A stretch of DNA of 64,000 nt from Notolepis coatsorum (Eukaryota > Chordata > Actinopteri > Aulopiformes > Paralepididae), in NCBI GenBank assembly GCA_963971535.1, contig OZ020589.1, positions 54,689,743-54,753,742 of the forward strand, in the 5' to 3' direction. The translations under genes were made by a program, and so were the position numbers. Each line of letters starts with the position of its first letter. Within the stretch, counting starts at the first letter, position 1. The notes beneath the pieces are model-generated. The model searched no databases. It saw nothing but the letters and a program-made list of their open reading frames with translations, and was not told the origin of the DNA. Positions 30,657 through 64,000 of this stretch are shown here, one piece after another.

Positions 30657-30727
30657 GGCACAGTGGTGCAGCTGTAGTGCTCAAGCCTGCCAACCCAGTG
30701 ACCGGGGTTCAAAACCCGGTGTTTCCA
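30657..30727 (+). tRNA. tRNA-Gly-like sequence inside TIR copy 1 (probably pseudogene)
   Basis: A box-like TGGTGCAGCTGTAG, an anticodon loop CTGCCAA with GCC, and B box GGTTCAAAACC lie in tRNA order and spacing, and a T run follows at 30735. Arms are only partly paired. It is a tRNA-derived pol III-type sequence rather than a proven tRNA. Confidence 0.4.
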
Positions 30728-30880
30728 ATATGATTTTTTTGAATATAATATTAATGATTATACGCCAAGGTAGCCTGGTTTTAAGTTAAAATATTATAAA
30801 TCTACATGCATTGAGGATGTCATTCTTTATATAGCTCTCAACGTGCACCAAATTGAATTATTCCTATATTGCAAAAAGAA

Positions 30881-30954
30881 GGAAAAGACTAGGGTCTCGA
30901 ACCCCGGTCGTCTGCGTGATAGTCAAAACAACAACCCGTTAGACCACATTGGAG
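30881..30954 (-). tRNA. tRNA-Glu-like sequence inside TIR copy 1 (probably pseudogene)
   Basis: On the minus strand, TGGTCTAACGGGT is an A-box match and GGTTCGAGACC a B-box match. The anticodon position reads ATC here (TTC in the other two copies). It converges with the Gly-like sequence. Confidence 0.4.
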
Positions 30955-31435
30955 ATAAGTTAAAGATCGACTATACATCAATCAATGGGTAAGAGAGCCG
31001 TATCGTAATTCTGTATAACAGTTAACTAATTATTTTCGCTAGCAAGATCTCATTTGATTATTCAATCCAGCAGGCAAGTTTAAAGAAATATAATCTGATT
31101 GATTGAGGTAATGAGGGACTTAAAATTAGCCTATAGATAACGCATTTAACTTGTCGGCGAGGCGATTGAGCCGTATTGCAATCTGTCAATAAAGTTTTAA
31201 ATCAATTAATCAATCAATGCCGTTAGAGAATCAGGATCTCTGCCATCGATACGTGCTGGCTTTTCGCCTGAAGCGGCCGCGCGCATTTAGCCTGAGTCGC
31301 AAGTCTGGCTTGAGTTAACGAGACTGAATCCACCTTCGAGGAACAGGAAAATCCCGGCTTCGAACATCGGGTTAACTGAAGCTGGATAATGACATCTTGA
31401 TCGACTTAGTTGAACCAGGTACAAGAAACAGGGCC

Positions 31436-31758
31436 CTGGTGCTGTGCTGGTAAAGACACAATGACATGATGCAGATATTTTACATTGCAAAATTAGCTGG
31501 AATGCTGCCATCTGATTAGGTTAAAGAGGCATTTCACCAAAACAACAGCGGCAATTTATTTTACAAATAATCTCCCACACATCCAAAAACTCTAAACAGT
31601 TTTGCACATATTAATTTAGTTTGACAGTTATTGAGAGTAATGAGTTTTCATATGGCAACCAGTAATGTCATCGGGGACACTGACTCCTTGTGTTGTGTTA
31701 ATCACAGCTCAATTAAATGATAAGGTAGCAGTCCCTATAAGACAAGATATTGCTATTT
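31436..31758. other. no gene recognised
   Basis: Short unassigned stretch between a TIR element and a LINE tail. Confidence 0.4.
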
Positions 31759-36227: not shown

Positions 36228-37931
36228 ATGGCGCAGCAAGGAGTTGATCTGGACCGGGACCAGTTCCGCTGTTCTCTCTGTCTGGATCTACTGAAGGATC
36301 CGGTAACTATTGCCTGTGGACACAGCTACTGTATGGGCTGTATTACAGACTGCTGGGATCACGGTGATCAGACCGGGATCTACAAATGTCCCCAGTGCAG
36401 GGAGACTTTTACTCCCAGGCCTGCTCTGAAGAAAAACAACATGCTGGCTGAAGTGATGGAACAACTAATGAAGACAGGACCCCAAGATGCTCCTCCTGAT
36501 CACTGTTATGCTGGACCTGCAGATGTGGCCTGTGATTTCTGCACTGGGAGAAAGCGGAAAGCCCTCGAGTTCTGCCTGGTATGTCGGACCTCTTTCTGTG
36601 AAACTCACCTCCAGCCTCATCATACTGTACCTCCGTTAAAGAAACACAAGCGAGTCAAAGCCTCCACACAGCTTCAGGAGAACATCTGCTCTCGTCATGA
36701 CAGGATTCTGGATGTTTTCTGTCGTACTGATCAGCAGTGCATCTGTTATTTGTGTTCCATGGATGAACATAAAGGCCACGATACAGTCTCAGCTGCAGCA
36801 GAAAGGACGGAGAGACAGAAAGAGCTTGGCATGAGTCAGCAGAAACTCCACCAGAGAGTCCAGGAGAGAGAGAAGCAACTCAAAGAGGCCCAACAGGATG
36901 TTGATTATCTCAATCGCTCTGCTGATAAAGCAGTGGGGGACAGTGGGAGAGTCTTCACTGAGCTGATACGCTCCTTGGAGACGAGGCGCTCTGAGCTGGA
37001 GAAGGTCATCAGAGCCCGACAGAGGACCACAGTGATTCAGGCTGAAGAAGTGCAGAAGAGACTGGAGCAGGAGATAGCGGACCTGAGGAGGAGAGACACT
37101 GAGCTGGAGCAGCTCTCACACACAGAGGACCACATCCACTTTCTACAGAGTCACCCCCCCCTCTCCAGTCCCAGTGAGTCTACAGACTCATCCAGCATCA
37201 GTGTCCTTCCTCTCCTGTACTTTGCAGATGTGACTCGGGTCATGTCTGAGCTGAGAGACAAACTACAGGACGTTCTGGAAGAGCAGTGGCCCAGAATCTC
37301 AACAACAGTGAATGCAGTTATTAATGTTTTACTGCTACCAGAGCCCAAGACCAGAGCTGACTTCTTACAATATTCCTCTCAGTTCACACTGGACCCAAAC
37401 ACAACACACAGAAAACTGTCTTTGTCTGAGGATAACAGGAAAGCAACATGGATGCAGCAAGCGCAGACTCAGTCATATCCTGATGATCACCCAGAAAGAT
37501 TTATTGGATGTGCTCAGGTTCTGGGTAGAGAAGGTCTGACTGGACGCTGTTACTCGGAGGTGAAGTGGAGTGGAGCGGTTTCTGTAGCAGCCTCCTACAA
37601 AGACATGAGTAGAACAGGCACTGAGGAGGACTGTGAATTTGGATTCAATTCTAAATCCTGGGCTTTAGTTTACAGACAAAGTGATTACTTATTCAGCCAC
37701 AATAACAAGCACATAGCAGTACCGGGCCCCCGGTCCTCCAGAATAGGAGTGTACCTGGATCACAGGGCAGGTACTCTGTCCTTCTACAGCGTCTCTGACA
37801 GGACTGACACCATGATCCTCCTGCACAGAGTCAACACCACATTCACTCAGCCTCTCTATCCTGGACTTGGGGTCAGCTTCTCTATCTCTGGACTGGACCC
37901 TGGGAAGGCTGAGTTTTGTGAGCTGAAGTAG
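36228..37931 (+). CDS. TRIM family E3 ubiquitin ligase (RING, B-boxes, coiled coil, PRY/SPRY), intact
   Basis: Single-exon frame of 567 codons from an ATG in good context. RING C3HC4 at residues 15-57 (Cys15, 18, 30, His32, Cys35, 38, 54, 57) should bind zinc and an E2. B-box 1 is at about 104-140 and B-box 2 at about 151-190, followed by a coiled coil at about 192-300 for dimerisation and PRY/SPRY at about 378-567 for target recognition. This is the full domain set of the expanded fish TRIM group (TRIM16/25-like or finTRIM-like), many of which act in antiviral signalling; that role is family knowledge, not shown here. Residue 443 is Ser where unit A and most SPRY domains have Trp (CYWEVEW). 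A shorter sister copy lies at 23232. Confidence 0.9.
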   Translation: MAQQGVDLDRDQFRCSLCLDLLKDPVTIACGHSYCMGCITDCWDHGDQTGIYKCPQCRETFTPRPALKKNNMLAEVMEQLMKTGPQDAPPDHCYAGPADVACDFCTGRKRKALEFCLVCRTSFCETHLQPHHTVPPLKKHKRVKASTQLQENICSRHDRILDVFCRTDQQCICYLCSMDEHKGHDTVSAAAERTERQKELGMSQQKLHQRVQEREKQLKEAQQDVDYLNRSADKAVGDSGRVFTELIRSLETRRSELEKVIRARQRTTVIQAEEVQKRLEQEIADLRRRDTELEQLSHTEDHIHFLQSHPPLSSPSESTDSSSISVLPLLYFADVTRVMSELRDKLQDVLEEQWPRISTTVNAVINVLLLPEPKTRADFLQYSSQFTLDPNTTHRKLSLSEDNRKATWMQQAQTQSYPDDHPERFIGCAQVLGREGLTGRCYSEVKWSGAVSVAASYKDMSRTGTEEDCEFGFNSKSWALVYRQSDYLFSHNNKHIAVPGPRSSRIGVYLDHRAGTLSFYSVSDRTDTMILLHRVNTTFTQPLYPGLGVSFSISGLDPGKAEFCELK

Positions 37932-40842: not shown

Positions 40843-40860
40843 TGGTCCTTCGAGCCGGAT
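40843..40860 (+). promoter_or_regulatory. tRNA primer binding site of the BEL/Pao element
   Basis: TGGTCCTTCGAGCCGGAT starts two bases after the LTR end. It begins with TGG, the complement of a tRNA CCA end, and has the form typical of BEL/Pao elements. Confidence 0.85.
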
Positions 40861-40898
40861 GGTAATTAGCGTAATATTAATATAATATTAATATTGAC

Positions 40899-42002
40899 AT
40901 GGCCAGCGGTGAACACTCCACAAACGGCTCTCCTAAGCTAGAACGCCCGACGCGCAGACGGCAGCCACCTTCTTACCTAGAGGACTACGCCGCCAGTCTA
41001 CTACCTAGCTTTATACAGACGTTAAAGGCGGATAAAATAAGTAAAGCGGATAGCCAAAGTATGTCAAACCCTACCGACCAGGCGACCCTGCCAGTAGAGA
41101 CCCTAGTGGGTTCTAACGTAACTGACCAAGCTCACGGGGGGGACCAGGAGGGACATGACATGACTTTACCCCCCGACAACGGCAACGGGACAGTCCCCGG
41201 AGAGCTCCAGGATAAAGAAAGCGCTCCAGGGACGGAACCCGACCCACTACCAGAAGAGACGCACACCCAGGAGATGGACCTCCTCGGACCGCGACAGGAG
41301 AACGGATCTCCAACGAGCACTGCCAGAAGCCGATCACCTCCGCCGGTGTCTTCCCCCAGCGAAGCGGACAAGATGCTGGCGCAGGCATTCATCGCCACCC
41401 TGGCAGCCTCCACCGAACGCGATCGACTTCAAGCGCAACAGACGAGCGAGCGCGAACAAGCTGCAGACCAACGAGAGCACCTTCACACGCAACTCCAAGC
41501 GCAAGCCCTCAGTGAACGCGAACATTCTGCAACCGAGCGAGAGCGCTTCCAGGCGCAACAAAGGAGTGAAGACGACCGCATAAGACTGGAGACCAGACGC
41601 CTTCAGACGGAAGAGAACATTGAAAGAAGCCGCGCCGATGCACAGTGCGCCGCCGCCAATGCACAGCGCGACGCCGCCCATGCCAGCGCCAATGCACAGC
41701 GCGACGCCGCCAATGCCCAGCGCGAAGCAGTGCGCAATGCCGCCCATGCCCAGCGCGAGGCAGAGCGCGACCGGCTGCAGGCGCAGATGATGGAAAAATT
41801 GATTGCCATGGCGACACCCCCTCTCTCCGCACGGAGCTCCTGGAGATCATCACGACAAGGGTCTAGGACACATTCCCCTACCCGACCAAGCGACCCGGGA
41901 CCCCGCCAACAGGAGGATCCTGTCCACGTCTCCGAACCCCCTCCCCGCCGGTCCTTACGAGACCCAGCAACCGGGAAGAACCGGACCACGCCGAGAGACT
42001 GA
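40899..42002 (+). CDS. BEL/Pao Gag N-terminal part
   Basis: 367 codons from ATG. It starts with a basic patch (RPTRRRQPPSYLEDYAASLL), then an acidic linker. From about residue 165 to 305 there is a very long helical Glu/Arg/Gln/Ala region, including NAQRDAA-type units (near 41650-41770), likely a coiled coil. The frame stops at 42000-42002. The next Gag domain starts in the same frame at 42300, and the intervening 300 bases read best in other frames, so gag is interrupted by small indels or the two parts are separate proteins. Confidence 0.75.
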   Translation: MASGEHSTNGSPKLERPTRRRQPPSYLEDYAASLLPSFIQTLKADKISKADSQSMSNPTDQATLPVETLVGSNVTDQAHGGDQEGHDMTLPPDNGNGTVPGELQDKESAPGTEPDPLPEETHTQEMDLLGPRQENGSPTSTARSRSPPPVSSPSEADKMLAQAFIATLAASTERDRLQAQQTSEREQAADQREHLHTQLQAQALSEREHSATERERFQAQQRSEDDRIRLETRRLQTEENIERSRADAQCAAANAQRDAAHASANAQRDAANAQREAVRNAAHAQREAERDRLQAQMMEKLIAMATPPLSARSSWRSSRQGSRTHSPTRPSDPGPRQQEDPVHVSEPPPRRSLRDPATGKNRTTPRD

Positions 42003-42299
42003 ACAGAAGACTCCAGGACCTAGCAGAGGAAGAGGAAGAGGAGTACTCTGGACCAGGAGGCCCAGTACAGCCCCGACCAGCAGCAACGTACTCTGGACCA
42101 GGAGGCCCAGTACAGCCCAGACGTCAGCCCCGAGTCACTGCGCTACAAACCCCCGACTCAACTCACGGGTGAGTTTGACGCACCGCCAGCCCCGAGGAAC
42201 AGCACCTGGGTACTCGGGCTTCGGTACCCGCCAAGTACCAGCCCACGACGACACGTACGGAGAGACTCGCCCAGGAGGCCTCTCCCCCAACGCTCACCG

Positions 42300-44525
42300 A
42301 TGTGTCAGCCATCCATGGCATCGTACCTTGGCACACCGACGTTCCCGGATTTTACACGCGAGGACAGAGCACAGTACACGGAGCTACGGATGTGCTTAGA
42401 GACTATGCTGTCCGACGTCCCAGACGAGACGTACAAATATGCTATCCTCCTCAAGCACCTGAAGGTGCCCAGAGCGCATAATATAGCGCTGGCATATTCC
42501 AACTCAAGTACCCCATACACCGCGGCTCTAGTAGCCCTCGACCAGCGCTATGGACGCATATGGGACTACGTGATACAGGAAATAAGAGATATCGACCGCC
42601 TCCCCCCAGCCAGAGACAATAGAGCATTGGACGACCTCTCTATCAAGGTACAGTCCCTGGTAGGGATGCTGGGGTCCCAAAAGGAGAAAGGGATATATGA
42701 ACTGTATGCTAACTCTAATGTAGAAAGGATATTAGAGAAGCTCCCCCCCGCCCGACAAGAGCGTTTTCGGCGGCAGAGAGACCACCGCGACCCCAACGGC
42801 CCAGAGGCATCCCTCCTAGACCTATCTGAGTTCCTCGCCAGGGAGGTCAGCAGCCTACGACTGGACACGTTCATGTGGAGTGGACCAAGCCCAAGACCAG
42901 GACCTCGGGGATCAAATGATAACCGCCGGTCGGTGACCGTTATGCACCAAGCCGAATCAGTACCGCAGCACAAGAACCACAACACCCCCTTGACGAAAGA
43001 GGAGTGGAAGATTGAATGCCAGTACTGTGAAGGGGAACATCGGCTGTATCAATGCGACCCTTTCAAGAAGCTGACCACGGACGAGGTGAGTCAGTGGATC
43101 AAAGACCACCGCCGCTGCTTCCGCTGCGCGCGCAGCCATATGGCAGCTGAGTGCCGTTTGAAGAAGAAGTGCGGCAGGTGCGGCGGCGCCCACTTGGAGG
43201 TCCTGCATGATATCAACAGGCGTCCGCCAGGACAACAAAGTGGGCCCGTCACGGTAATGTACCAGGCCGAGGCGGTGGCACCAGTACCGAAGATCCACCA
43301 GACCGCCCCCTGGTGTACCGACTGCTACAGCAGACACTGGGAGTCACGGTGCTACTCGGACGACCGCGAGTCGGCACCACTCCAGAAGATCCAAAGCAAC
43401 CGACCAACAGGAGTGCTCCACATTGACCAGCATAGTGGGACCCCCCGAGTGCTCATCAAAGTGGTCAGAGTGCTCCTGAGCTACGAGGACAAGGTCCTGG
43501 ACACTTACGCCGTCCTGGACGATGGGTCTGAAAAGACTCTCCTCCTCGCTTCCGCCGCAGCCCAGTTGGGCCTGCGGGGTGCCAAAGGTACCATGACAAT
43601 ACGTACCATCAGAAGGGACCAGAAGACCATAAAGGGTGAAAATGTCTCCTTCAAGATAGCAGCGGTGGACCAGCCCGAGAAGCAGTATAGTATTACCAAC
43701 GTCTTCACCAGCCACGACATAGGCCTATCACAGTACACCTACCCCATCCCACAGCTGATGGCGAAGTATGTGCACCTACGTCAACTACCTATACCGCTTA
43801 TCGACGGCGCCACACCGACCCTGCTCATCAGCTCTGACCACGCGGACCTCATTCTCCCAATTGAGGCGGCCCACATCGGACCCAAAGGATGCCCAGTCGC
43901 GGTTCAGACCCGACTGGGGTGGACGCTCCAGGGCCCCCTCTACGGACTTGACAGTCAACCCACGTCTACACGCTGCCTACACACAAAGGCGAGCGACACC
44001 GGCCACTCCCTCGTACAGCCCATTGAGAGGCTATTGACATTAAGCGAGAGGCCTGTGAGAGAACCGTGGGCACAAGAGGGAGTTCGGAACTCCACCCCCC
44101 TCAGCTGCGCTCCAGACGTAGCTGACCTCGAACCCAGCACCCCAAGCGACTCCTTGATGGGGCGGCCAGAACCGGCCCCTCCTCAGACGGGGTACAGAGC
44201 AAACAAGAGAAACAGACGGAGGAGGTGGAGGCGCAGCCAAGCACAGATCAAAGCAGTCTCAGGCCCGCTTCCTCCTAACCCCCCTACCATCCCTTCCAGC
44301 CCGTCAGAAGCGGGTCAAGGACGGGGACAACTTAAAAGTGGACACAGTCGTCGTTATCATAGACCAGTCACTACCCCGAGCTGCGTGGCCGGCCGGCCGC
44401 GTAAGCAAAGTGATCACTGGTGCCGACGGAAAGGTCAGAGCGGCAGAAGTGCTCGTCCAGGGGCGGACATACACCCGACCCGTGGCGAGGCTGATAGAGT
44501 TGCCAAGGCTCCCCGACTCTCCTAA
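42300..44525 (+). CDS. BEL/Pao Gag (DUF1759-like), zinc knuckles and DUF1758 protease
   Basis: 741 codons. Residues about 10-160 match the BEL Gag pattern (PTFPDFTREDRAQYTEL, then YAILLKHLKVPRAH). Cys/His clusters follow at about 240-252 (CQYCEGEHRLYQC), 273-290 (CFRCARSHMAAEC) and 293-305 (CGRCGGAHLEVLH). The protease-like DUF1758 domain spans about 380-545 with the core AVLDDGSEKTLL and later GWTLQGPL. In complete elements RT, RNase H and integrase follow. Here the frame enters unrelated Pro/Arg-rich translation, and the neighbouring frame carries only the extreme C-terminal pol domain. Confidence 0.85.
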   Translation: MCQPSMASYLGTPTFPDFTREDRAQYTELRMCLETMLSDVPDETYKYAILLKHLKVPRAHNIALAYSNSSTPYTAALVALDQRYGRIWDYVIQEIRDIDRLPPARDNRALDDLSIKVQSLVGMLGSQKEKGIYELYANSNVERILEKLPPARQERFRRQRDHRDPNGPEASLLDLSEFLAREVSSLRLDTFMWSGPSPRPGPRGSNDNRRSVTVMHQAESVPQHKNHNTPLTKEEWKIECQYCEGEHRLYQCDPFKKLTTDEVSQWIKDHRRCFRCARSHMAAECRLKKKCGRCGGAHLEVLHDINRRPPGQQSGPVTVMYQAEAVAPVPKIHQTAPWCTDCYSRHWESRCYSDDRESAPLQKIQSNRPTGVLHIDQHSGTPRVLIKVVRVLLSYEDKVLDTYAVLDDGSEKTLLLASAAAQLGLRGAKGTMTIRTIRRDQKTIKGENVSFKIAAVDQPEKQYSITNVFTSHDIGLSQYTYPIPQLMAKYVHLRQLPIPLIDGATPTLLISSDHADLILPIEAAHIGPKGCPVAVQTRLGWTLQGPLYGLDSQPTSTRCLHTKASDTGHSLVQPIERLLTLSERPVREPWAQEGVRNSTPLSCAPDVADLEPSTPSDSLMGRPEPAPPQTGYRANKRNRRRRWRRSQAQIKAVSGPLPPNPPTIPSSPSEAGQGRGQLKSGHSRRYHRPVTTPSCVAGRPRKQSDHWCRRKGQSGRSARPGADIHPTRGEADRVAKAPRLS

Positions 44526-49701: not shown

Positions 49702-51801
49702 AAGCTCATCCTGGCTGCATATCTCTTCTACTGTCTTATCTAGAAGCTCATCCTGGCTGCATATCTCTTCTACTGTATCTAGAAGATCGTCCTGGCTGCA
49801 TATCTCTTCTACTGTCTTATCTAGAAGCTCATCCTTGCTGCATATCTCTTCTACTGTCTTATCTAGAAGCTCATCCTGGCTGCATATCTCTTCTACTGTA
49901 TCTAGAAGATCATCCTGGCTGCATATCTCTTCTACTGTCTTATCTAGAAGCTCATCCTGGCTGCATATCTCTTCTACTGTCTTATCTAGAAGATCATCCT
50001 GGCTGCATATCTCTTCTACTGTCTTATCTAGAAGATCATCCTGGCTGCATATCTCTTCTACTGTCTTATCTAGAAGATCATCCTGGCTGCATATCTCTTC
50101 TACTGTATCTAGAAGCTCATCCTGGCTGCATATCTCTTCTACTGTCTTATCTAGAAGCTCATCCTGGCTGCATATCTCTTCTACTGTCTTATCTAGAAGC
50201 TCATCCTGGCTGCATATCTCTTCTACTGTCTTATCTAGAAGCTCATCCTGGCTGCATATCTCTTCTACTGTCTTATCTAGAAGCTCATCCTGGCTGCATA
50301 TCTCTTCTACTGTCTTATCTAGAAGCTCATCCTGGCTGCATATCTCTTCTACTGTCTTATCTAGAAGCTCATCCTGGCTGCATATCTCTTCTACTGTCTT
50401 ATCTAGAAGCTCATCCTAGCTGCATATCTCTTCTACTGTCTTATCTAGAAGCTCATCCTGGCTGCATATCTCTTCTACTGTCTTATCTAGAAGCTCATCC
50501 TGGCTGCATATCTCTTCTACTGTCTTATCTAGAAGATCATCCTGGCTGCATATCTCTTCTACTGTCTTATCTAGAAGCTCATCCTGGCTGCATATCTCTT
50601 CTACTGTCTTATCTAGAAGCTCATCCTGGCTGCATATCTCTTCTACTGTCTTATCTAGAAGCTCATCCTGGCTGCATATCTCTTCTACTGTCTTATCTAG
50701 AAGCTCATCCTGGCTGCATATCTCTTCTACTGTCTTATCTAGAAGATCATCCTGGCTGCATATCTCTTCTACTGTCTTATCTAGAAGCTCATCCTGGCTG
50801 CATATCTCTTCTACTGTATCTAGAAGCTCATCCTGGCTGCATATCTCTTCTACTGTATCTAGAAGCTCATCCTGGCTGCATATCTCTTCTACTGTCTTAT
50901 CTAGAAGCTCATCCTGGCTGCATATCTCTTCTACTGTATCTAGAAGCTCATCCTGGCTGCATATCTCTTCTACTGTCTTATCTAGAAGATCATCCTGGCT
51001 GCATATCTCTTCTACTGTCTTATCTAGAAGCTCATCCTGGCTGCATATCTCTTCTACTGTATCTAGAAGCTCATCCTGGCTGCATATCTCTTCTACTGTC
51101 TTATCTAGAAGATCATCCTGGCTGCATATCTCTTCTACTGTATCTAGAAGCTCATCCTGGCTGCATATCTCTTCTACTGTCTTATCTAGAAGCTCATCCT
51201 GGCTTCATATCTCTTCTACTGTCTTATCTAGAAGCTCATCCTGGCTGCATATCTCTTCTACTGTCTTATCTAGAAGCTCATCCTGGCTGCATATCTCTTC
51301 TACGGTCTTATCTAGAAGCTCATCCTGGCTGCATATCTCTTCTACTGTCTTATCTAGAAGATCATCCTGGCTGCATATCTCTTCTACTGTCTTATCTAGA
51401 AGCTCATACTGGCTGCATATCTCTTCTACTGTCTTATCTAGAAGCTCATCCTGGCTGCATATCTCTTCTACTGTCTTATCTAGAAGCTCATCCTGGCTGC
51501 ATATCTCTTCTACTGTCTTATCTAGAAGATCATCCTGGCTGCATATCTCTTCTACTGTCTTATCTAGAAGCTCATCCTGGCTGCATATCTCTTCTACTGT
51601 CTTATCTAGAAGCTCATCCTGGCTGCATATCTCTTCTACTGTCTTATCTAGAAGCTCATCCTGGCTGCATATCTCTTCTACTGTCTTATCTAGAAGATCA
51701 TCCTGGCTGCATATCTCTTCTACTGTCTTATCTAGAAGATCATCCTGGCTGCATATCTCTTCTACTGTCTTATCTAGAAGATCATCCTGGCTGCATATCT
51801 C
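49702..51801. repeat. 42-bp minisatellite (with 36-bp variants), about 50 copies
   Basis: Units read ATCCTGGCTGCATATCTCTT then CTACTGTCTTATCTAGAAGCTC. Some lack CTTATC (36 bp), and GCTC alternates with GATC at the unit end. Both lengths are multiples of 3, so one frame stays open for over 800 codons. I treat it as non-coding. A single related monomer is in the TRIM 3' flanks (25070 and 38548). Confidence 0.95.
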
Positions 51802-51829
51802 TTTTTTTTGTGAGCTCCGTGCACAGACG

Positions 51830-53094
<1,265 letters not shown>

Positions 53095-53232: not shown

Positions 53233-53573
53233 GGCCTCTGTTCCCTGGGCTCGGCTGTGCTCAGCCAGCATGGAGGCCAGTCTCTCCTGGATCTCCGACA
53301 TGGCCCTCTGGGTGGCCTGGTGGCCGGCATGAGCCTCGGACAGCAGAACCCAGGCATCGAAATCACTCCTCCCACCCGCATCACCCATCTTACAACCAGC
53401 CGGCATCACCGCGCTCTCAGATACTCTGGACGATGATTGCTTCACTCTTTGCCTCGTCTCCAGCTGTAGAGCTGTTGTGGCTGGTTGGCTGCTGGCTGCT
53501 ATCTGATCTGTTGTGGCTGGTTGGCTGCTGGCTGCTACCTGATCTGTTGTGGCTGGTTGGCTGCTGCTACCTG
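53233..53573 (-). repeat. 36-bp repeat region within an unassigned minus-strand frame
   Basis: GATCTGTTGTGGCTGGTTGG then CTGCTGGCTGCTACCT repeats two to three times and continues beyond the TIR element at 54956-55035. A minus-strand frame (53095-53586) reads SSQPATTDQVAA repeats followed by a helical-looking segment. I cannot assign it, and its end is translated transposon terminus. Confidence 0.6.
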
Positions 53574-54176
53574 GGCCCCGTTCCATGTACCTGGATAACT
53601 GAGTTAGCCGGATAACTTTAGCTGGATAACTGGGTTAGCCGGACTTTCCGGTTTCATGTACGTGGATTTTCCAGATCACCATGCCAACAGATCCAAAAGT
53701 TTGAGCCTGCTCGAAAGCAGAGTTCAAGTTCAAGTTAGCCCGATCACGCAGAGCCACGCCCCCGCAAAGAAGTGACAGCTCGTTTCCTGAAACTATTCCC
53801 ACAGTCTACGATCTGCATTATACCATTCTGAATTACGTTTTTGTGCTCCATTCTTCCAGAGGGGGCTTTTGAAATGTAAAATAGACCCAAAATGCTGATA
53901 TTAAATTCACTTTGTCCTAAATAATGCACGTTATATATACCGTGGCGACGGTGGCGCTCGCTCGTGCGATGTACACAAAAATGTGGTTATTTTAATTGTA
54001 ACTGGGATTAAGATGTCTGATGAGATGCGCTGTTTGACGGATTTGAGAAATTGAATGAGCCGTTGACGTCACATGAATGAATGAGGATAAAGAAATAAAA
54101 CTTCATTCAAAATAAGGAATATTCTAAACACGGGTCTCTCGTTCATTAATGTATAAACAATGAATTTATCCCATCT

Positions 54177-54247
54177 GGCACAGTGGCCCAGCGGTAGTGC
54201 TCAAGCCTGCCAACCTTGCGACCCGGGTTCAAATCCCAGTGTTTCCA
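54177..54247 (+). tRNA. tRNA-Gly(GCC)-like sequence in TIR copy 2
   Basis: This is the best-preserved Gly-like copy: A box TGGCCCAGCGGTAG, anticodon loop CTGCCAA (GCC), B box GGGTTCAAATCCC, end GTTTCCA, then a T run (54255). The order matches tRNA-Gly(GCC). The acceptor stem is not convincingly paired, so it may not fold as a working tRNA. Confidence 0.45.
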
Positions 54248-54400
54248 ATATGATTTTTTTGAATATAATATTAATGATTATACGCCAAAGTAGCCTGGTT
54301 TTAAGTTAAAATATTATAAATCTACATGCATTGAGGATGTCATTCTTTATATAGCTCTCAACGTGCACCAAATTGAATTATTCCTATATTGCAAAAAAAA

Positions 54401-54474
54401 GGAGACGACTAGGGTCTTGAACCCCGGTCGTCCGTGTGAAAGTCAAAAGAACAACCTGTTAGACCACATTGGAG
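54401..54474 (-). tRNA. tRNA-Glu(UUC)-like sequence in TIR copy 2
   Basis: Minus strand: A box TGGTCTAACAGGT, anticodon region ACTTTCACA (TTC), B box GGGTTCAAGACCC. A T-rich stretch follows. It converges on the Gly-like sequence about 150 bp away. Confidence 0.45.
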
Positions 54475-54955
54475 ATAAGTTAAAGATTGACTATACATCA
54501 TTCAATGGGCAAGAGGGCCGTATCGTAATTCTGTATAACAGTTAACTAATTCTTTTCGCTAGCAAGATCTCATTTGATTATTCAATCCAGCAGGCAAGTT
54601 TAAAGAAATATAATCTGATTGATTGAGGTAATGAGGGACTTAGAATTAGCCTATAGATAACGCATTTAACTTGTCGGCGAGGCGATTGAGCCGTATTGCA
54701 ATCTGTCAATAAAGTCTTAAATCAATTAATCAATCAATGCCGTTGAGAATCAGGGTCTCTGCCATCGATACGTGCTGGCTTTTCACCTAAAACGGCCGCG
54801 CGCATTTAGCCTGACTCGCAAGTCTGGCTTGAGTTAACGAGACTGAATCCACCTTTGTGAAACAGGAAAATCCCGGCTTCGAACATCGGGTTAACTGAAG
54901 CTGGATAATGGACATCTTGATCGACTTAGTTGAACCACGTACATGAAACAGGGCC

Positions 54956-55338
54956 CTGATCTGTTGTGGCTGGTTGGCTGCTGCTACCTGATCTGTTGTG
55001 GCTGGTTGGCTGGTTGGCTGGTTGGCTGGTTGGTTGGCTGGGTGGAACGGCATGACCAGTGTGTGGAAATCCAACCTCCCCGTCAAATCAAGCTCAACTT
55101 CTTTCATGAACATTATATAAGAAAGGTTGAGATCCAAGGCAGCTCTACAGATTTTAAAAAGCCTTTAATAAGTGGCTTACATTATTTAGAATTTTTTTTT
55201 AAAAGTCCAACATGTTTCGGCCTACATGGCCTTCTTCAGGGTGTTGCTGTGACAAAAACAATACTGTGACTAAATAGAGGAAAAAAGGAAAAAACACACA
55301 CAACTCAGGGAGACACTAATTACAATGGGGGACAGCTG
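54956..55338. repeat. GGCTGGTTGGCTG repeats and another repeat fragment
   Basis: Continues the 36-bp repeat interrupted by copy 2 and degenerates to GGTTGGCT units. From 55195, CCAACATGTTTCGGCCTACA then TGGCCTTCTTCAGGG is a motif recurrent in fish repeats and may be the distal part of the Penelope-like element at 57142, because its minus-strand neighbour is that element. Confidence 0.5.
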
Positions 55339-55818
55339 GGCCCTGTTTCTTGTACGTGGTTCAACTAAGTCGATCAAGATGTCATTATCCAGCTTCAGTT
55401 AACCCGATGTTTGAAGCCGGGATTTTCCTGTTCCACGAAGGTGGATTCAGTCTCGTTAACTCAAGCCAGACTTGCGACTCAGGCTAAATGCGCGCGGCCG
55501 CTTTAGGTGAAAAGCCAGCACGTATCGATGGCAGAGATCCTGATTCTCTAACGGCATTGATTGATTAATTGATTTAAGACTTTATTGACAGATTGCAATA
55601 CGGCTCAATCGCCTCGCCGACAAGTTAAATGCGTTATCTATAGGCTAATTTTAAGTCCCTCATTACCTCAATCAATCAGATTATATTTCTTTAAACTTGC
55701 CTGCTGGATTGAATAATCAAATGAGATCTTGCTAGCGAAAATAATTAGTTAACTGTTATACAGAATTACGATACGGCTCTCTTACCCATTGATTGATGTA
55801 TAGTCAATCTTTAACTTA

Positions 55819-55893
55819 TCTCCAATGTGGTCTAACGGGTTGTTCTTTTGACTTTCACACAGACGACCGGGGTTCGAGACCCTAGTCGTCTCC
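55819..55893 (+). tRNA. tRNA-Glu(UUC)-like sequence in TIR copy 3
   Basis: This is the best-preserved Glu-like copy: TGGTCTAACGGGTTGTTC (A box), TTTTGACTTTCACACAGACG (anticodon arm with TTC), GGGGTTCGAGACCC (B box), followed by CTTCTTTTTG, a pol III-type terminator. Confidence 0.5.
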
Positions 55894-56046
55894 TTCTTTT
55901 TGCAATATAGGAATAATTCAATTTGGTGCACGTTGAGAGCTATATAAAGAATGACATCCTCAATGCATGTAGATTTATAATATTTTAACTTAAAACCAGG
56001 CTACTTTGGCGTATAATCATTAATATTATATTCAAAAAAATCATAT

Positions 56047-56117
56047 TGGAAACACCGGGTTTTGAACCCCAGTCGCTGGGTTGGTAGGCTTGAGCACTAC
56101 CGCTGCACCACTGTGCC
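56047..56117 (-). tRNA. tRNA-Gly-like sequence in TIR copy 3
   Basis: Minus strand: TGGTGCAGCGGTAG (A box), anticodon loop CTACCAA (ACC, altered from GCC), GGGGTTCAAAACCC (B box), then a T run. Confidence 0.4.
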
Positions 56118-56722
56118 AGATGGGATAAATTCATTGTTTATACATTAATGAACGAGAGACCCGTGTTTAGAATATCCTTTGTTTTGAATGAAGTTTATCT
56201 CTTTATCCTCATTCATTAATGTGACGTCAACGGCTCATTCAATTTCTCAAATCCGTCAAACAGCGCATCTCATCAGACATCTTAATCCCAGTTACAATTA
56301 AAATAACCACATAATGTGTACATCGCACGAGCGAGCGCCACCGTCGCCACGGTATATATAACGTGCATTATTTAGGACAAAGTGAATTTAGTATCAGCAT
56401 TTTGGGTCTATTTTACATTTCAAAAGACCCCTCTGGAAGAATGGAGCACAAAAACGTAATTCAGAATGGTGTAACGCAGATCCTAGGCTGTGGGAATAAT
56501 TTCAGGAAACGAGCTGTCACTTTCTTTGCGGGGGCGTGGCTCTGCGTGATCCGGCTAACTTGAACTTGAACTCTGCTTTCGACCAGGCTCAAACTTTTGG
56601 ATCTGTTGTCATGGTGATTTGGAAAATCCACGTACATGGAACCGGAAAGTCCGGCTAACTCAGTTATCCAGTTAAAGTTATCCGGCTAACTCAGTTATCC
56701 AGGTACAAGAAACAGGGCCCTG

Positions 56723-57141
56723 GTCCCAATTAAATGAAGGCAAAGCAACATTCTCAACTTGAGTTGAAGTAAATATACAATAATACTAAATAGAAAAACA
56801 AATTTGTATATTATATAAGTATATATACACACAAGCTCAAAATATTATAACAACATAAAGAAATGAGTCAAAAATAGAATAGATCAATAATAATATAAAC
56901 AATTACCAACAATTATCAAAAAACAATTATCAAAAAACAATTATCAAAACAACAACAATGTAAGAGCATTGAGTAATGCATGACAAAGAATAATAATACT
57001 ATAATGTAATCTACTTAGCCTATAAAAGTGACAGTATGTCCGTAGAGTCATTTAAACCTGTAAAGAGGTGGCCTGTAGTCTATCAAAATACAATAAATAA
57101 CAATGTATAAATACAATAAATAAATAAAGTGATCTACTGGC
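56723..57141. other. A/T-rich DNA with a partial duplicate of the Penelope-like 3' end
   Basis: 56999-57088 repeats 57130-57209 (GCCTATAAAA, TCATTTAAACCTG, GGTGGCCTGTAGTCTATC). The rest is A/T-rich without features. Confidence 0.45.
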
Positions 57142-57350
57142 CTATAAAAATGATACCATGTCTATGGAATCATTTAAACCTGGGAGTGAGGTGGCCTGTA
57201 GTCTATCGATCCAGCGACTTTCTTTCTGGTTTAGAATTTGAGATGTGCCACAGAACAAGTGACACTTTTTGACAATGACATCCTGGGTCGTTCCTATATG
57301 ACCAGTATGAATCTTGGAACTGAACTCTCTCTTATAAAAAATGGAACTGA
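57142..57350 (-). mobile_element. Penelope-like / GIY-YIG element, C-terminal remnant
   Basis: Minus-strand translation gives KIHTGHIGTTQDVIVKKCHL, then LNQKESRWIDRLQATSLPGLN and DSIDMVSFL before a TAG stop (57144-57142). KExxWIxxLxxxxPxGLN is the usual end of GIY-YIG-bearing Penelope-like polyproteins of fish. The upstream part is lost. Confidence 0.55.
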
Positions 57351-57879
57351 GCCTTTATATGTCTCCATAGAAAATGTCTGTGAAAAGCTGTGAAAAGGGA
57401 GTGAACCAACAGAATGATTCATTCATGGGCCTCTGGAGAGGAGAGAGACAGGGACGGAGGAGAAAGAGCTGTGTAATGTTAAACCCTTTCAGACGGGGAG
57501 GGTTGCTGGTTGAAGTCTTGAATCAGAAGAGGAAGGAGAAGAGAGCAGATTATAATGACTATAATGTAATGTAAACTAATGTAATATAGTACACCGTGTA
57601 CTGTATTGTACCTGTATATCTCTGTATATGTATGTGGTGGGCTATGTAAGATATATTACGGAAGTCTGCCTCGCCCTCGTCCCAGAACGAAAGAGGCCCC
57701 ATGCAGTAGAGAAGTGACCGGCTGGAATGCAAGGCCAAGAAGGGGGGGCGCTAGTCAGAGGGGCATTGTATTCTTATAAATTACTTGATTTGATATGTAA
57801 CTGCAAAGTAACAAATAACTGAAGGAGGGATATGACACGTAATGTACGGTGATTGGAGCTATGTACTGACGATGGCGTG

Positions 57880-58019
57880 ACGTGACGGACCTTATAAAAA
57901 GGGCCAACTGGCGAGAGCAGAGTGAGATTTTTACACTGAGCTGGAGAGAGAAGAAGAATGTTACTTAGAGACTTTTTTGAGAGATTTTGAGGAGAAGACT
58001 GAAACCTGATATATAACGG
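57880..58019 (+). promoter_or_regulatory. TATA promoter and first non-coding exon upstream of the macro-domain frame
   Basis: CCTTATAAAAAGGGCC at 57889-57904 is a strong TATA box. A start near 57920 would give an exon of about 100 bp ending ATAACGG before GTAAGG. The sequence from about 57570 could be U3 of a 5' LTR, but the matching 3' LTR would lie outside the window, so LTR versus host promoter is open. Confidence 0.5.
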
Positions 58020-58150
58020 GTAAGGATGGAGATGTATTTTTGCATTGTAACTTTACCAGTAATAATAATAATAATAATAATAATGATAATGTGCTGCAAT
58101 GTGCCTGTATTGTGCCTAATATATGATATAAAAAAGAACTTTTTCCCCAG
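58020..58150 (+). other. probable 131-bp intron
   Basis: Donor GGGTAAGG at 58019-58025, branch-like CCTAATA near 58116, and acceptor AACTTTTTCCCCAG ending at 58150. An AAT run (58061-58082) sits inside. All three splice signals are close to consensus and in the right order. Confidence 0.55.
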
Positions 58151-58185
58151 ACGGAGGAGGAGGAGAAAGGCTTTATCCCTACGGA

Positions 58186-58433
58186 GTAAAAGAAGACCTA
58201 TGCTTATGCATTAAGGCAAATAGAAGTATGGCTTTAATACGTTAGAGTAAAAGACCTATGCTTATGCATTAAGGCAAATAGAAGTATGGCTTTAATACGT
58301 TAGAGTAAAAGAAGACCTATGCTTATGCATTAAGGCAAATAGAAGTATGGCTTTAATACGTTAGAGTAAAAGAAGACCTATGCTTATGCATTAAGGCAAA
58401 TAGAAGTATGGCTTTAATACCTTAGACGGATTA
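58186..58433 (+). repeat. 61-bp tandem repeat, 4 copies
   Basis: Unit: GACCTATGCTTATGCATTAA then GGCAAATAGAAGTATGGCTT and TAATACGTTAGAGTAAAAGA. It immediately follows the probable second exon start. Confidence 0.92.
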
Positions 58434-58834
58434 GGGAAATGGACCTCCTCTGAATATAGATAGTCCTTCCCAGTGCAAATATAAATTAAAAGATTCCGCA
58501 ACTGCAATCACTCGACCTAAGGTCGATGACTGACGGGGGTCGGAACGGTGCATTCGCTGTCTCTTGTCGGTCAGTGGTAACAACAACATTTTGTAGACTC
58601 GGTTGGTCCTGCGTGTCAACCATTTCACAGGACGCTGTTTGAGGTGTAGATAGGCAGACCAATGAGTTATGAAGTTATCGATCTGACCTAAGAGGGAGCG
58701 TGGGCATTCAACATGGCGTCCCTGGCGAGTGGGCATTTATACTAACCAAAATAGGTGCTAAAACGGCCGAAGAAGACAGGACTACTGTCAAAATCCTCTG
58801 GAGTAAAAATTAAATTACAGATTTGGCTAAATCA

Positions 58835-59258
58835 AAAAAGTAGGAGGTTCTACTTAAACAAAGGATCACGCTTAAAGTATATTTTTGTGATTGCGGTAAA
58901 AAGGTTTACTCATGACTAAAAAGTTACGTAATGTTTTCTTACAGTCAAAAAAGAAAAAAGTAGGAGGTTCTACTTAAACAAAGGATCACGCTTAAAGTAT
59001 ATTTTTGTGATTGCGGTAAAAAGGTTTACTCATGACTAAAAAGTTACGTAATGTTTTCTTACAGTCAAAAAAAAAAAAAAAAAGTAGGAGGTTCTACTTA
59101 AACAAAGGATCACGCTTAAAGTATATTTTTGTGATTGCGGTAAAAAGGTTTACTCATGACTAAAAAGTTACGTAATGTTTTCTTACAGTCAAAAAAGAAA
59201 AAAGTAGGAGGTTCTACTTAAACAAAGGATCACGCTTAAAGTATATTTTTGTGATTAC
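58835..59258 (+). repeat. about 120-bp tandem repeat, 4 copies
   Basis: Unit begins AAAAAAGTAGGAGGTTCTAC, continues CGCTTAAAGTATATTTTTGTGATTG in pieces, and ends GTAATGTTTTCTTACAGTC. TTTTCTTACAG in each unit resembles a splice acceptor. Copies differ mainly in the length of the A run. Confidence 0.92.
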
Positions 59259-59311
59259 TGTGAAAATTCTGCTGGGTGAAGTTGCAGTGCAAAAATCACT
59301 TTCATGCTTTG

Positions 59312-60372
59312 TTCACAGAAAAGCGAGGGCTTCCTAGCCCAGAGACACTGTTTGTGAGCGGAGTGTGGATGTGAAGCGAGTCAAAACGACCGTTCACAGA
59401 AAAGCGAGGGCTTCCTAGCCCAGAGACACTGTTTGTAAGCGGAGTGTGGATGTGAAGCGAGTCAAAACGACCGTTCACAGAAAAGCGAGGGCTTCCTAGC
59501 CCAGAGACACTGTTTGTGAGCGGAGTGTGGATGTGAAGCGAGTCAAAACGACCGTTCACAGAAAAGCGAGGGCTTCCTAGCCCAGAGACACTGTTTGTAA
59601 GCGGAGTGTGGATGTGAAGCGAGTCAAAACGACCGTTCACAGAAAAGCGAGGGCTTCCTAGCCCAGAGACACTGTTTGTGAGCGGAGTGTGGATGTGAAG
59701 CGAGTCAAAACGACCGTTCACAGAAAAGCGAGGGCTTCCTAGCCCAGAGACACTGTTGGTGAGCGGAGTGTGGATGTGAAGCGAGTCAAAACGACCGTTC
59801 ACAGAAAAGCGAGGGCTTCCTAGCCCAGAGACACTGTTGGTGAGCGGAGTGTGGATGTGAAGCGAGTCAAAACGACCGTTCACAGAAAAGCGAGGGCTTC
59901 CTAGCCCAGAGACACTGTTTGTAAGCGGAGTGTGGATGTGAAGCGAGTCAAAACGACCGTTCACAGAAAAGCGAGGGCTTCCTAGCCCAGAGACACTGTT
60001 GGTGAGCGGAGTGTGGATGTGAAGCGAGTCAAAACGACCGTTCACAGAAAAGCGAGGGCTTCCTAGCCCAGAGACACTGTTTGTAAGCGGAGTGTGGATG
60101 TGAAGCGAGTCAAAACGACCGTTCACAGAAAAGCGAGGGCTTCCTAGCCCAGAGACACTGTTTGTAAGCGGAGTGTGGATGTGAAGCGAGTCAAAACGAC
60201 CGTTCACAGAAAAGCGAGGGCTTCCTAGCCCAGAGACACTGTTTGTAAGCGGAGTGTGGATGTGAAGCGAGTCAAAACGACCGTTCACAGAAAAGCGAGG
60301 GTTCCCTAGCCCAGAGACCCTGTTTGTAAGGAGAGACTGGATGTGAAGCACAGTCGAAAAGACCGTTCACAG
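59312..60372. repeat. 81-bp tandem repeat, 13 copies
   Basis: Unit: GTTCACAGAAAAGCGAGGGC then TTCCTAGCCCAGAGACACTG, TTTGTGAGCGGAGTGTGGAT and GTGAAGCGAGTCAAAACGACC. Copies are almost identical (TTTGTAAG, TTTGTGAG or TTGGTGAG variants); the last is diverged. The length is a multiple of 3 and the minus strand is open for 349 codons, which I treat as coincidental. Confidence 0.95.
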
Positions 60373-60520
60373 AACTGGAAGCTAACTAGCTCGCCATCCG
60401 CCAACAAGCCAGGGGTGTACTGAATGCTAACTGGATGGCTACCTAGCCCGAGGCTACGTGACACGAAGCCAGGCGGAAGCTAACTAGCTCACCATCGGCT
60501 AACAGACCAGTGCTAACACG

Positions 60521-63500
60521 ATGTCTCACAATCATTCCCACACCATAGAGGAGGAATTACCCTCGGAGGAGAGATTGGGGGTGTTTATACCCGACCTGGG
60601 TCTGGACTACCCAGGAGAACGGGAGGACCGCCCTGAGTCCCCTGATACGTTTGCAGGAAGTGAGGAATTCACAGAACCAAGCGAACCCCTATATCCAGAG
60701 CTGCCAGCTGGACAGCAGGCCGTAATTGGAACACGAACGGTTCCGAAGGCTACGGCCCCTGCATACTGGCCCGAAGGCCTGGGACTTCAGGGACAGTGGA
60801 GCCCCCTGCCCCAAGTCCCTACAACACACTCTACGCCAGAGGAGCAGACCATGCCCCCTGGCATGTCAAGGTTGAATGAAATCTCATGTACTATCAAACC
60901 CAGATCTCAACCAGGAAACCCTAAGCATATACAGCACCTATGGGTCTGCTCCATATGGTTACAAAATTTTGTACCAAAAGGAAACCACACCTTTGTGGTT
61001 AACCCAGCCAACAGAGGCCTACGTAATGGGGGGGGAATGGCAAAAGCCATACAAGACATGGCAGGACCCGGCTACGCCGAATGGTGTGCAAGAGAAGTGG
61101 CCAGACAACCTCATAACCTCCTTAAGGATGGCACAGTGCTGGTAGGAGTCCCCTACCTACTTAAAAATAAGGGTTACGAGGGGATACTGACAATTGCCAT
61201 GCAAGACATACTGCCCGGAACAGACCTTGAAAGCCAAACCCGAGTACTCCTGGCATATTACAGGAGCATTTTCAGACAAGCCCAGAGAATAGGCATAACA
61301 AGCCTAGTCATGACACTGTTCGGAACAGGGATCTGGCACTATGACGTCAACACGAGCATATGGTGCTTCTTGGAAGCCTACCAAGAAATACCGGCTGCAT
61401 CCATGGCAGTGGTCTTGCTAGTCCCGGACAAATACCAAGCAAACACAGTGCGCAGAGCTCAAATGGAGGCATGGCCATCACATTACCGAAATGGCTGGGG
61501 AAATCTGTTCGAAGAAATTGAGCCCACTATGGTCGGAGACCTCACACAGGTCATGAACGAGGTGGCATACAGAAACCAGACATGGTCTGGTCCTCAGGGA
61601 ACACCACGGGAAGCGAGTCACTCAGAACAGAGGGCCCAAATCACGTGGCCCCCGTCTGGACCCGGGAGGATGTATGAGGAAATACCAGACACTCGGCCTC
61701 CCAGCACTGAGAGAGAAGGCTCAGGGGGTTTCACTAACCCTGGAAGCCCTGCACTCCAGTTTTCCGGTGCGAGGCACACCCAGGAGGGGGTGACGCAGGA
61801 ACGTAGTCAGGACTCAGGAGCAGACGCGGACCAAGCACGGCCTGTACCCCCTCACAAGTACATCAGCCAGAGGGATCCCCGCTCCATTAGTGACCCCTCT
61901 GGATGTGAAATGAGGGAAGTTACTAGCGGGGGACAACTACAGACGCTGGGGGGATCAGCTACACCAATGGCTACATCGACCCCAGGGCGAGATTACTCCC
62001 TGGGGTACTTAAGCCCAGGACCACGTGTTCACGAGGAAGTGAAACAAGCGAGAGCAGCCTCCACCTCTCGCCGTGGTGAACACTCCGGGGCGAGAGGAAT
62101 ATCTACCGACTCTCACAAAGAAACACCAGACATAACAGTCACTAACTACCCAGTCTGGACCGACAACTCTGACGCACCATGGTCGATTCTCACCTTCACT
62201 GGACCATCTTTGACGAGCTATGGTAGATGGGAAACGAGCATGGTAGCGGCAGGAGGCGCTTATTACCGGAACCTGAGGAAACAGGTGATGGAAATAAGGA
62301 CCAAAGAACCCCTAAAACCGGGCAAGGCAGTAATCACTGAGTGTGATTATAATGTGTTTCACGCGGAGAAAGTTGTCCATGTGACACTGAGCCAAAACAG
62401 GTACAATAAAATACAGTCCTCACAAAAGAACTGGGACAATCTGGTGTCCCGGATGAAGGATCTACTGCAGAGAAGAGAAATCTATGCTGGCCATGGTACC
62501 AAGGACATGCCCTACCGACTAGCTATAAACCTGATGTGGGGCAGGTCTCGAGTATATGGCCAAAGAGGCATATGGTTGGGGGAGGCAGTAGTCCACGCAA
62601 TCTCAACCATAAGAAGTGCAAAACACACGGAAATCTGCCTCATGGTAGAACCCAAGGACCATGAGGGAATAACCCAGGCCTTGACTGAAGCAGGAGAGAG
62701 TGAGGAGGATGAGGACAGTGAACCGGCATCGATACCCCTCAATCCCCCTCCAGACACTGAGGGGTCGGGAATTGGACCCAGGAAGGAAAAGTCCAATTCC
62801 CAGAGCTTCTCCCGAACAACAGAAAGAGGGAGATCATCCACTCCCCGGAAACCAACAGTACAGTTTGAACCAGAAAGGGATGGACTTGTCAAATCCCGGG
62901 CTAAGAGTATTCTTAGACGACTAGGCTGTCCCCAGGAGTCAGGGGACGACCCGACAGATAGCGGACCGGAGTATACTGATTCAGATCAGGACTCAGGAGA
63001 AGAGAGAGACCTGGATCGGTCGAGCTCCAGAGCCTCCTCAATGTCCTCATCTAGGTCAAGATCTAGGGAGAGAGTTCGGTACCCAAGGGGCGAACCTCCT
63101 AGGCCTCGGAACAAGAGAGCCAAACCGGTCAAACTGAGACCTATAGGCCCCGGGCCCCCCCTGAAGGGCACCGCCTTCCAGTCACCTTCAGGCTTGACCT
63201 GGAGCTCAGGATTGGAGGACGTCTCCGACGAAAGTGAAGGAGAATTGGCAGGAGAAGAAACAGGGGATATTATGCCAGCATATCCCGTGACATGGAGGAA
63301 GGCTCGGGCCTTAGCACGGTCACCTGAGGCAGAGAAAGTGTTGTCTCACGCGGGAATAACGGAACCATACAAGCATGCATATTTACATGCTGGCTATGAC
63401 GTACTGCGCGAACAAGTGTACAAACGGGACAGGGCCATGGCCGAAATAGCCAGGAGAGAAAGACACTGGTTGAACAAAGCCCCGTCCATAAGCCCAATCC

Positions 63501-64000
63501 GAGCCCTGGGACACGGCACAGGGGAACACCGCCCGGAGGTAAGCCCTCACTCCATACTGGCCCAATCTCCCGGAGACATATACCGACCAAGAGGAAAGAG
63601 TTTACATACCGATAGGAGTCTGTATGACAGTGCCCAATATGGAGAAAGCAACAAAGCACAAGAATTATTGAGCAAAACCCAAGTGCTCAAGAAACTGGCC
63701 CCAGAAATGAATCATGGGGAGACCCAGGCTGCTTATATCCATAGGATTGCTCAGATTTTTCATGGGTCCCCTCTCTACGATGACCCGGATGCCGCTCGCA
63801 TTTTGCGACACCTCAAAGGACTGGAGATCCCCGAAGGGGCATCTATGGCCCAAATGATGGAAATAGAAGTGAGAACCCCCGGTCAAGATCCAGGGGAAAA
63901 TATGGTGGAGAAACTAATCCCACAGGTGAGAGACGGGAGTGTGTCTCTCACTGTTGCAGCGGAATCAGTCATACGTGGAGGACCTGTGCAAGGATCAGGC
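60521..64000 (+). CDS. macro-domain polyprotein, possibly Gag-like, 3' end beyond window
   Basis: ATG at 60521 (A at -3; in-frame TAA at 60500) opens a frame with no stop to the window edge, 1160 codons. Residues about 125-305 form a macro domain: VVNPANRGLRNGGGMAKAI (Asn161, Asn164, Gly170-172), then GTVLVGVPYLL and a second loop GTGIWHYD (268-275), the ADP-ribose/phosphate-binding loops. Residues about 550-720 look like a second macro fold with altered loops (AGGAYYRNL at 577-585, PGKAVITE at 600-607, FHAEKVVHVTL). Then come an acidic linker, a Ser/Arg-rich basic patch (832-875), a charged helical segment (about 920-985) and 1048-1160, where HGETQAAYIHRIAQIF weakly recalls a capsid major homology region. 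Likely role inferred: Gag-like protein of a large retroelement with ADP-ribose-binding or hydrolase domains. A host macro-domain gene is the alternative. Confidence 0.7.
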   Translation, partial: MSHNHSHTIEEELPSEERLGVFIPDLGLDYPGEREDRPESPDTFAGSEEFTEPSEPLYPELPAGQQAVIGTRTVPKATAPAYWPEGLGLQGQWSPLPQVPTTHSTPEEQTMPPGMSRLNEISCTIKPRSQPGNPKHIQHLWVCSIWLQNFVPKGNHTFVVNPANRGLRNGGGMAKAIQDMAGPGYAEWCAREVARQPHNLLKDGTVLVGVPYLLKNKGYEGILTIAMQDILPGTDLESQTRVLLAYYRSIFRQAQRIGITSLVMTLFGTGIWHYDVNTSIWCFLEAYQEIPAASMAVVLLVPDKYQANTVRRAQMEAWPSHYRNGWGNLFEEIEPTMVGDLTQVMNEVAYRNQTWSGPQGTPREASHSEQRAQITWPPSGPGRMYEEIPDTRPPSTEREGSGGFTNPGSPALQFSGARHTQEGVTQERSQDSGADADQARPVPPHKYISQRDPRSISDPSGCEMREVTSGGQLQTLGGSATPMATSTPGRDYSLGYLSPGPRVHEEVKQARAASTSRRGEHSGARGISTDSHKETPDITVTNYPVWTDNSDAPWSILTFTGPSLTSYGRWETSMVAAGGAYYRNLRKQVMEIRTKEPLKPGKAVITECDYNVFHAEKVVHVTLSQNRYNKIQSSQKNWDNLVSRMKDLLQRREIYAGHGTKDMPYRLAINLMWGRSRVYGQRGIWLGEAVVHAISTIRSAKHTEICLMVEPKDHEGITQALTEAGESEEDEDSEPASIPLNPPPDTEGSGIGPRKEKSNSQSFSRTTERGRSSTPRKPTVQFEPERDGLVKSRAKSILRRLGCPQESGDDPTDSGPEYTDSDQDSGEERDLDRSSSRASSMSSSRSRSRERVRYPRGEPPRPRNKRAKPVKLRPIGPGPPLKGTAFQSPSGLTWSSGLEDVSDESEGELAGEETGDIMPAYPVTWRKARALARSPEAEKVLSHAGITEPYKHAYLHAGYDVLREQVYKRDRAMAEIARRERHWLNKAPSISPIRALGHGTGEHRPEVSPHSILAQSPGDIYRPRGKSLHTDRSLYDSAQYGESNKAQELLSKTQVLKKLAPEMNHGETQAAYIHRIAQIFHGSPLYDDPDAARILRHLKGLEIPEGASMAQMMEIEVRTPGQDPGENMVEKLIPQVRDGSVSLTVAAESVIRGGPVQGSG

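Follow-up and report, generated by a model that had tools for sequence, protein, structure and literature searches.

Most known viral macro domains belong to replicases of plus-strand RNA viruses and counteract antiviral marks made by PARPs. Some fish Epsilon-like endogenous retroviruses (ERVs) encode macro-domain proteins as well, as stated by Naville and Volff (2016) with reference to Basta et al. 2009 (PMC4977317), and a paper on the SARS-CoV-2 macro domain Mac1 cites Basta 2009 on the point that the macro domains of viruses and cells are related (PMC10499221). Here, a 64-kb stretch of DNA (the window) was analysed, which stops inside a long open reading frame (ORF) at 60521–64000. With moderate confidence, we read this ORF as the greater part of gag from an ERV or a closely related long terminal repeat (LTR) element of a vertebrate, probably a fish, with a macro domain that binds or removes ADP-ribose. 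The initial annotation knew of no macro domain in the Gag of canonical fish LTR elements and retroviruses. Its view of fish retroviruses is contradicted in part by the Epsilon-like ERVs (PMC4977317); none was described with the domain inside Gag among the matches listed.

The ORF is the following feature:

60521–64000 (+): Gag-like ORF of 1160 codons that runs past the window end (1382–1401 aa in full-length relatives)

It begins with ATG and contains 1160 sense codons without a stop, exactly as the initial annotation had counted, and is still open at the right edge of the window. The remaining five frames across this interval contain 39–53 stops apiece. In 3 Mb of first-order Markov sequence with matched composition, open frames reached 304 codons at most, compared to the 1160 observed, and the probability of such an open frame by chance is ~1e-22.

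Four relatives, all 1382–1401 aa long, were found when 5.8 billion proteins were searched and 7989 candidates scored. These full-length relatives are 37–38% identical to the window ORF (BLASTP), with the best local alignments covering 96, 96, 95, and 59% of it. Their longest contigs measure 4.6–14.4 kb (source 'ena'). Further searches added the C-terminal fragments P0006–P0009 and the 802 aa protein P0010, which has lost domain 2 (described below) and has a decayed-looking frame. No relatives were found in IMG/VR (queries A3 and A6) or in GTDB genomes (query A1) by scans that were each based on two short peptide patterns. The layout of the predicted protein is conserved, with an N-terminus carrying LYPxL and [P/A]TAP motifs, followed by the macro domain, a second conserved domain, an RS/basic stretch, and a helical C-terminal region. 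Along this order, the identity of the window copy to P0002–P0005 is 24–26% in the N-terminus, 45–48% in the macro domain, 23–30% in the linker, 36–39% in domain 2, 39–44% in the RS linker, 60–64% in block 901–980, 20% in the next linker, and 49–58% in block 1041–1152.

The macro region comprises four features:

60857–61555 (+): conserved block around the macro core, residues 113–345
60998–61354 (+): macro domain core, residues 160–278, covered by profile matches
61001–61036 (+): macro loop 1, NPANRGLRNGGG, residues 161–172; N161, N164, and G172 invariant in 6/6 sequences
61322–61336 (+): macro loop 2, GTGIW, residues 268–272; G268, G270, and W272 invariant in 6/6 sequences

Judged from profile matches, the macro domain is genuine. 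Pfam Macro (PF01661) matched residues 160–278 of the window ORF with an E-value of 2.1e-10 and 41 bits, where the cut-off is 22. This score and the loop residues bear out the macro domain with both hallmark loops that had been annotated initially. The domain does not sit at the extreme N-terminus; ~110–155 residues come before it. Pfam Macro is also listed for all four full-length relatives and P0010 in a precomputed listing, and it matched 5/5 proteins scanned at E-values up to 10, with an individual E-value given for the window copy only. A five-sequence profile matched archaeal AF1521 in the PDB with an E-value of 1.1e-9. The PDB matches by phmmer and profile include AF1521, MacroD-type enzymes, the macro domains of coronavirus-type nsp3, the p200 chain of a virus (rubella), and PARP14, the last of the 16 profile rows (E 0.005). 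NCBIfam macro models matched far under their cut-offs, and the equivalog models were not reached.

The predicted domain retains the catalytic asparagine, the third glycine, and the loop-2 aromatic residue. Loop 1 belongs to the stretch VVNPANRGLRNGGG (residues 159–172), and its full GGG is present in the window copy only (1/6 sequences). In the relatives, the first, the second, or both glycines are changed (N-Q-K-G, N-G-A-G, N-Q-R-G, N-R-A-G, N-G-E-G). Loop 2 with its preceding residue reads FGTGIW (267–272), where the aromatic residue is Trp instead of the usual Tyr or Phe. The residue before this Trp is I, Q, T, T, T, and A across the six sequences, i.e., Q in one of them. Passages of PMC10221186 associate activity with Asn/Ser and Gly on either side of loop 1, and with a small or hydrophobic residue followed by Tyr/Phe in loop 2; the window copy has these residues, provided that Trp counts as aromatic. 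A Ser/Thr at residue 144 was considered by eye as a substitute for the Asp of the adenine site, and this reading was dropped, as the alignment there is ambiguous.

Downstream of the macro domain lies a further conserved domain:

62111–62686 (+): conserved domain 2, possibly a degenerate second macro domain, residues 531–722

It is possible that domain 2 is a degenerate macro domain. A profile-profile comparison with the macro domain (A2 against A3) gave a probability of 0.2%, and a PDB profile search with A2 returned two chance-level rows. The AlphaFold2 (AF2) model of domain 2, with a mean pLDDT (predicted local distance difference test) of 41, is too poor to rely on; its best Foldseek match in the PDB had an E-value of 2.0.

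The Gag-like features of the ORF are as follows:

60689–60703 (+): LYPEL, ALIX-type late-domain motif, residues 57–61; [LM]YP[ED]L in 5/6 N-termini, absent from P0010
60749–60760 (+): ATAP, PTAP-type late-domain motif, residues 77–80; TAP in 6/6 sequences (PTAP in 3, ATAP in 3)
63023–63145 (+): RS-rich/basic stretch, ...SRSRSRERVRYPRGEPPRPRNKRAKPVKLRP, about residues 835–875
63221–63460 (+): most conserved block, residues 901–980, 60–64% identical to the relatives; modelled as helical with low confidence (blocks pLDDT 48–61)
63641–64000 (+): capsid-like helical region, residues 1041–1160; the window end cuts inside the presumed C-terminal domain (CTD) of the capsid (CA)

The late-domain evidence consists of motif matches. 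YPxL and [PA]TAP both lie inside residues 1–130 in 5/6 sequences, and YPxL plus [PA]TAP or PSAP occurred in 0.04–0.12% of shuffles per sequence. When the model of the capsid-like region was compared by VIA-align (best 50 of 617 chains), ranks 1, 3, 5, and 10 were the PNMA2 capsid, Gag CA-SP1, the PEG10 CA-CTD, and the prototype foamy virus capsid. This modelled resemblance is weak. The motif GE.QA.Y..R, which we take to be similar to the major homology region (MHR), is present in 6/6 sequences covering the region (P0001–P0006), and the capsid-CTD match starts ~50 residues further on. The claim that this MHR-like motif at 1066 is the MHR itself was dropped, because the capsid model places the CTD later.

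Upstream of the ORF, candidate LTR and leader features were found:

57873–57890 (+): rival primer-binding-site candidate, tRNA-Arg, 15/18 bases, 5 leading
58184–58426 (+): 61-bp tandem repeats, 4 copies; part of the 5′ LTR on the assumption of a primer-binding site at 58714
58480–58490 (+): possible LTR promoter/poly(A) signals TATAAA (58480) and ATTAAA (58485), by pattern match
58714–58725 (+): putative primer-binding site, tRNA-Asn, 12/12 leading bases and 13/18 ungapped against the tRNA 3′ end, directly following ...TTCAACA (presumed LTR 3′ end)
58834–59256 (+): leader tandem repeat, 120 bp × 3.5
59311–60374 (+): leader tandem repeat, 81 bp × 13.1, 97% matches

Twelve leading matches to some tRNA occurred in 6/1000 simulated upstream regions, and 15/18 matches in 21/1000. 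TATAAA is present at 57775, 57893, and 58127 too. A search for the LTR start through an inverted repeat to the LTR end gave best candidates of just 6/8 bases. No second copy of 57000–58713 was detected in the window (blastn E 1e-5, self-matches inside 58100–60400 excluded), except for an 80%-alike local pair at 56992–57207, and Rfam had no match in 56–64 kb. The 81-bp leader repeat (27 codons) contains a minus-strand frame that is open for 354 codons (59302–60366, −); the simplest reading is that it is open because the repeat length is divisible by three.

According to the proposed mechanism, the N-terminal motifs would bring in ALIX and TSG101 for the budding step, and the C-terminal helical region would form the capsid. 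As part of Gag, the macro domain would reach assembly sites and be included in particles. There, it may bind or remove ADP-ribose placed by host PARPs on Gag or surrounding proteins and blunt this antiviral mark. That the domain acts on the ADP-ribose of Gag or nearby host proteins at assembly or entry, and thereby counters a PARP defence, is a tentative prediction, to which we give slightly less than even chances. A role in counter-defence, as suggested in the initial annotation, is plausible.

Several observations weigh against a Gag with an ADP-ribose-directed macro domain, and they are given here with the alternatives that they favour. A conserved Asp at the adenine site was found nowhere in residues 139–158 of the six sequences, where the alignment to AF1521 is ambiguous. 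As this usual adenine-contacting residue is not evident, ADP-ribose binding may be altered. The main rival retains the same Gag and proposes that its macro domain, rather than erasing ADP-ribose, has degenerated into a binder of RNA, nucleotides, or protein that aids genome packaging or chromatin tethering; we consider this unlikely. The SARS-unique macro domains and macroH2A are precedents for macro domains that are not erasers. Such a role would agree with the lack of an evident conserved Asp, with the loop-2 Trp in place of Tyr/Phe, with the altered first or second loop-1 glycine, or both, in the relatives, and with the RS/basic stretch close by; in addition, viral and host macro domains repeatedly lose activity, according to passages of PMC10221186. 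It is opposed by the invariance of N161, N164, G172, G270, and W272 in 6/6 sequences. Moreover, activity may persist without the Asp, because the SARS-CoV-2 Mac1 variant D226N, in which the adenine-contacting Asp is replaced, remained active, whereas D226V did not (passages of PMC7729036).

Other adverse observations concern the assignment to Gag. The retroelement-like polyprotein of the initial annotation is supported indirectly, by the layout of the relatives, the late-domain motifs, the possible primer-binding site, and the weak capsid resemblance, but neither pol, env, nor a 3′ LTR was found within the 64-kb window, which stops inside the gag-like frame. Sequence searches for a capsid gave nothing in Pfam at E-values up to 10 and chance-level rows in the PDB, and when the capsid model was compared to BFVD and PDB by Foldseek, no capsid was named among the best 50 matches listed of each. 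The tRNA-Arg candidate at 57873 exceeds the tRNA-Asn site at 58714 in total matches (15/18 vs 13/18), which leaves the primer-binding site unsettled between the two. A CCHC zinc knuckle, expected of an orthoretroviral Gag, was present in 0/4 full-length relatives, and the window copy is cut before that part. Spumavirus Gag is not known to carry a CCHC knuckle either. The missing pol and 3′ LTR, the weak capsid resemblance, and the unsettled primer-binding site would suit a structural protein of a non-LTR or non-retroviral mobile element or virus that shares the macro module; this is improbable given the late-domain motifs, the Gag-like order, and the possible primer-binding site.

Slightly more improbable still is a domesticated Gag-derived gene that serves the host and is not the element's own gag. 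The Gag of recently active zebrafish ERVs is required in development, as described in passages of PMC10996621, and the frame of the window ORF is wholly open across 1160 codons. However, a possible primer-binding site and LTR-like signals lie upstream, several divergent full-length relatives exist beside one decayed-looking copy (P0010, domain 2 lost), and the leader repeats have 97% matches. That a host macro/PARP gene or a captured host exon was taken for a retroelement is very improbable: among vertebrate proteins, PARP9/14/15 and MacroD commonly have macro domains, but the frame is unbroken over 3.5 kb, Macro is the only family in its 1160 aa, with no PARP or other cellular domain (Pfam, E up to 10), the profile search ranks AF1521 highest along with viral macro domains and a MacroD-type enzyme, and PARP14 last, and the late motifs and capsid-like region share the same frame.

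Elsewhere in the window, a TRIM-type gene (RING, B-box, coiled coil, PRY/SPRY) is located at 36228–37928 (+), with a second, partial PRY/SPRY-bearing copy ~12.7 kb upstream at 23576–24379 (+). In fish, TRIM genes are commonly present in many copies and frequently act against viruses. The assignment to fish follows the initial annotation and the overall character of the window, whose TRIM and retroelement genes are compatible with a vertebrate. Another LTR-type element at 40843–44525 (+) has a perfect 18-base tRNA-Tyr primer-binding site at 40843; the long ORFs after it contain, by eye, cysteines resembling a zinc knuckle, and Pfam gave no retroelement family there. A Gypsy-type gag region is present in two near-identical copies, ~3 kb apart and sharing their internal minisatellites, at 8878–13700 (−); the one copy that was scanned matched Pfam Retrotrans_gag, with Ty3_capsid under its cut-off. 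Three copies of a 1.38-kb repeat, 96–97% alike, are at 30068–31436, 53569–54956, and 55338–56724, one of which ends ~2 kb left of 58714. A 42-bp minisatellite of ~50 copies (49702–51803, 96% matches) precedes a 115-copy ATA run (whole 49702–52176).

If the favoured reading is true, a macro-bearing retroviral structural protein would locate the conflict with PARPs in assembly or in the capsid as it enters, and would allow a direct test of Gag modification by fish PARPs. The macro domain, late motifs, and capsid-like block together would provide a sequence handle for finding the lineage in fish genomes and dating the capture. A macro domain inside Gag was described in no title or abstract start among the matches listed, which is no proof of absence from print, and passages of PMC8672886, PMC6001957, PMC9040795, PMC10996621, PMC5512871, PMC7599744, and PMC4299795 mention no macro domain. 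Basta et al. 2009 may already describe the macro-in-Gag layout; if they locate the domain in Gag, the window element is merely a new member.

The window ORF shares loop 1 (N-x-A-N...G) and loop 2 (G-x-aromatic) with coronavirus nsp3 Mac1 and archaeal AF1521. It differs from both in its carrier, which is a structural Gag-like protein and not a replicase or free enzyme, in the loop-2 Trp, and in the adenine-site Asp, which is not evident. The late domains of EIAV p9 and HIV-1 p6 contain an LYPxL-type motif, with P(T/S)AP nearby in HIV-1. In the window ORF, in contrast, both late motifs are near the protein N-terminus, before the macro domain. Foamy-like ERVs (FLERVs), known from fish and amphibians, resemble the window element as long elements, and newt FLERVs and galago foamy virus have a tRNA-Asn primer-binding site (passages of PMC5512871); a foamy virus capsid is also among the structural look-alikes of the C-terminal region. 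In contrast to the tRNA-Asn candidate in the window, the two characterised fish FLERVs use a tRNA-Lys primer, and this source mentions no macro domain as far as its section 6 and the retrieved passages go (PMC5512871). Two things link the fish Epsilon-like ERVs to the window element, namely the setting in an ERV of a fish and a macro-domain protein that the element itself encodes. Their macro-domain proteins are presented as additional ORFs in passages of PMC4977317, whereas the macro domain of the window lies inside the Gag-like frame. Macro-domain fish retroviruses are already on record, and the predicted protein of the window differs in that the macro domain is built into the structural-type protein itself.
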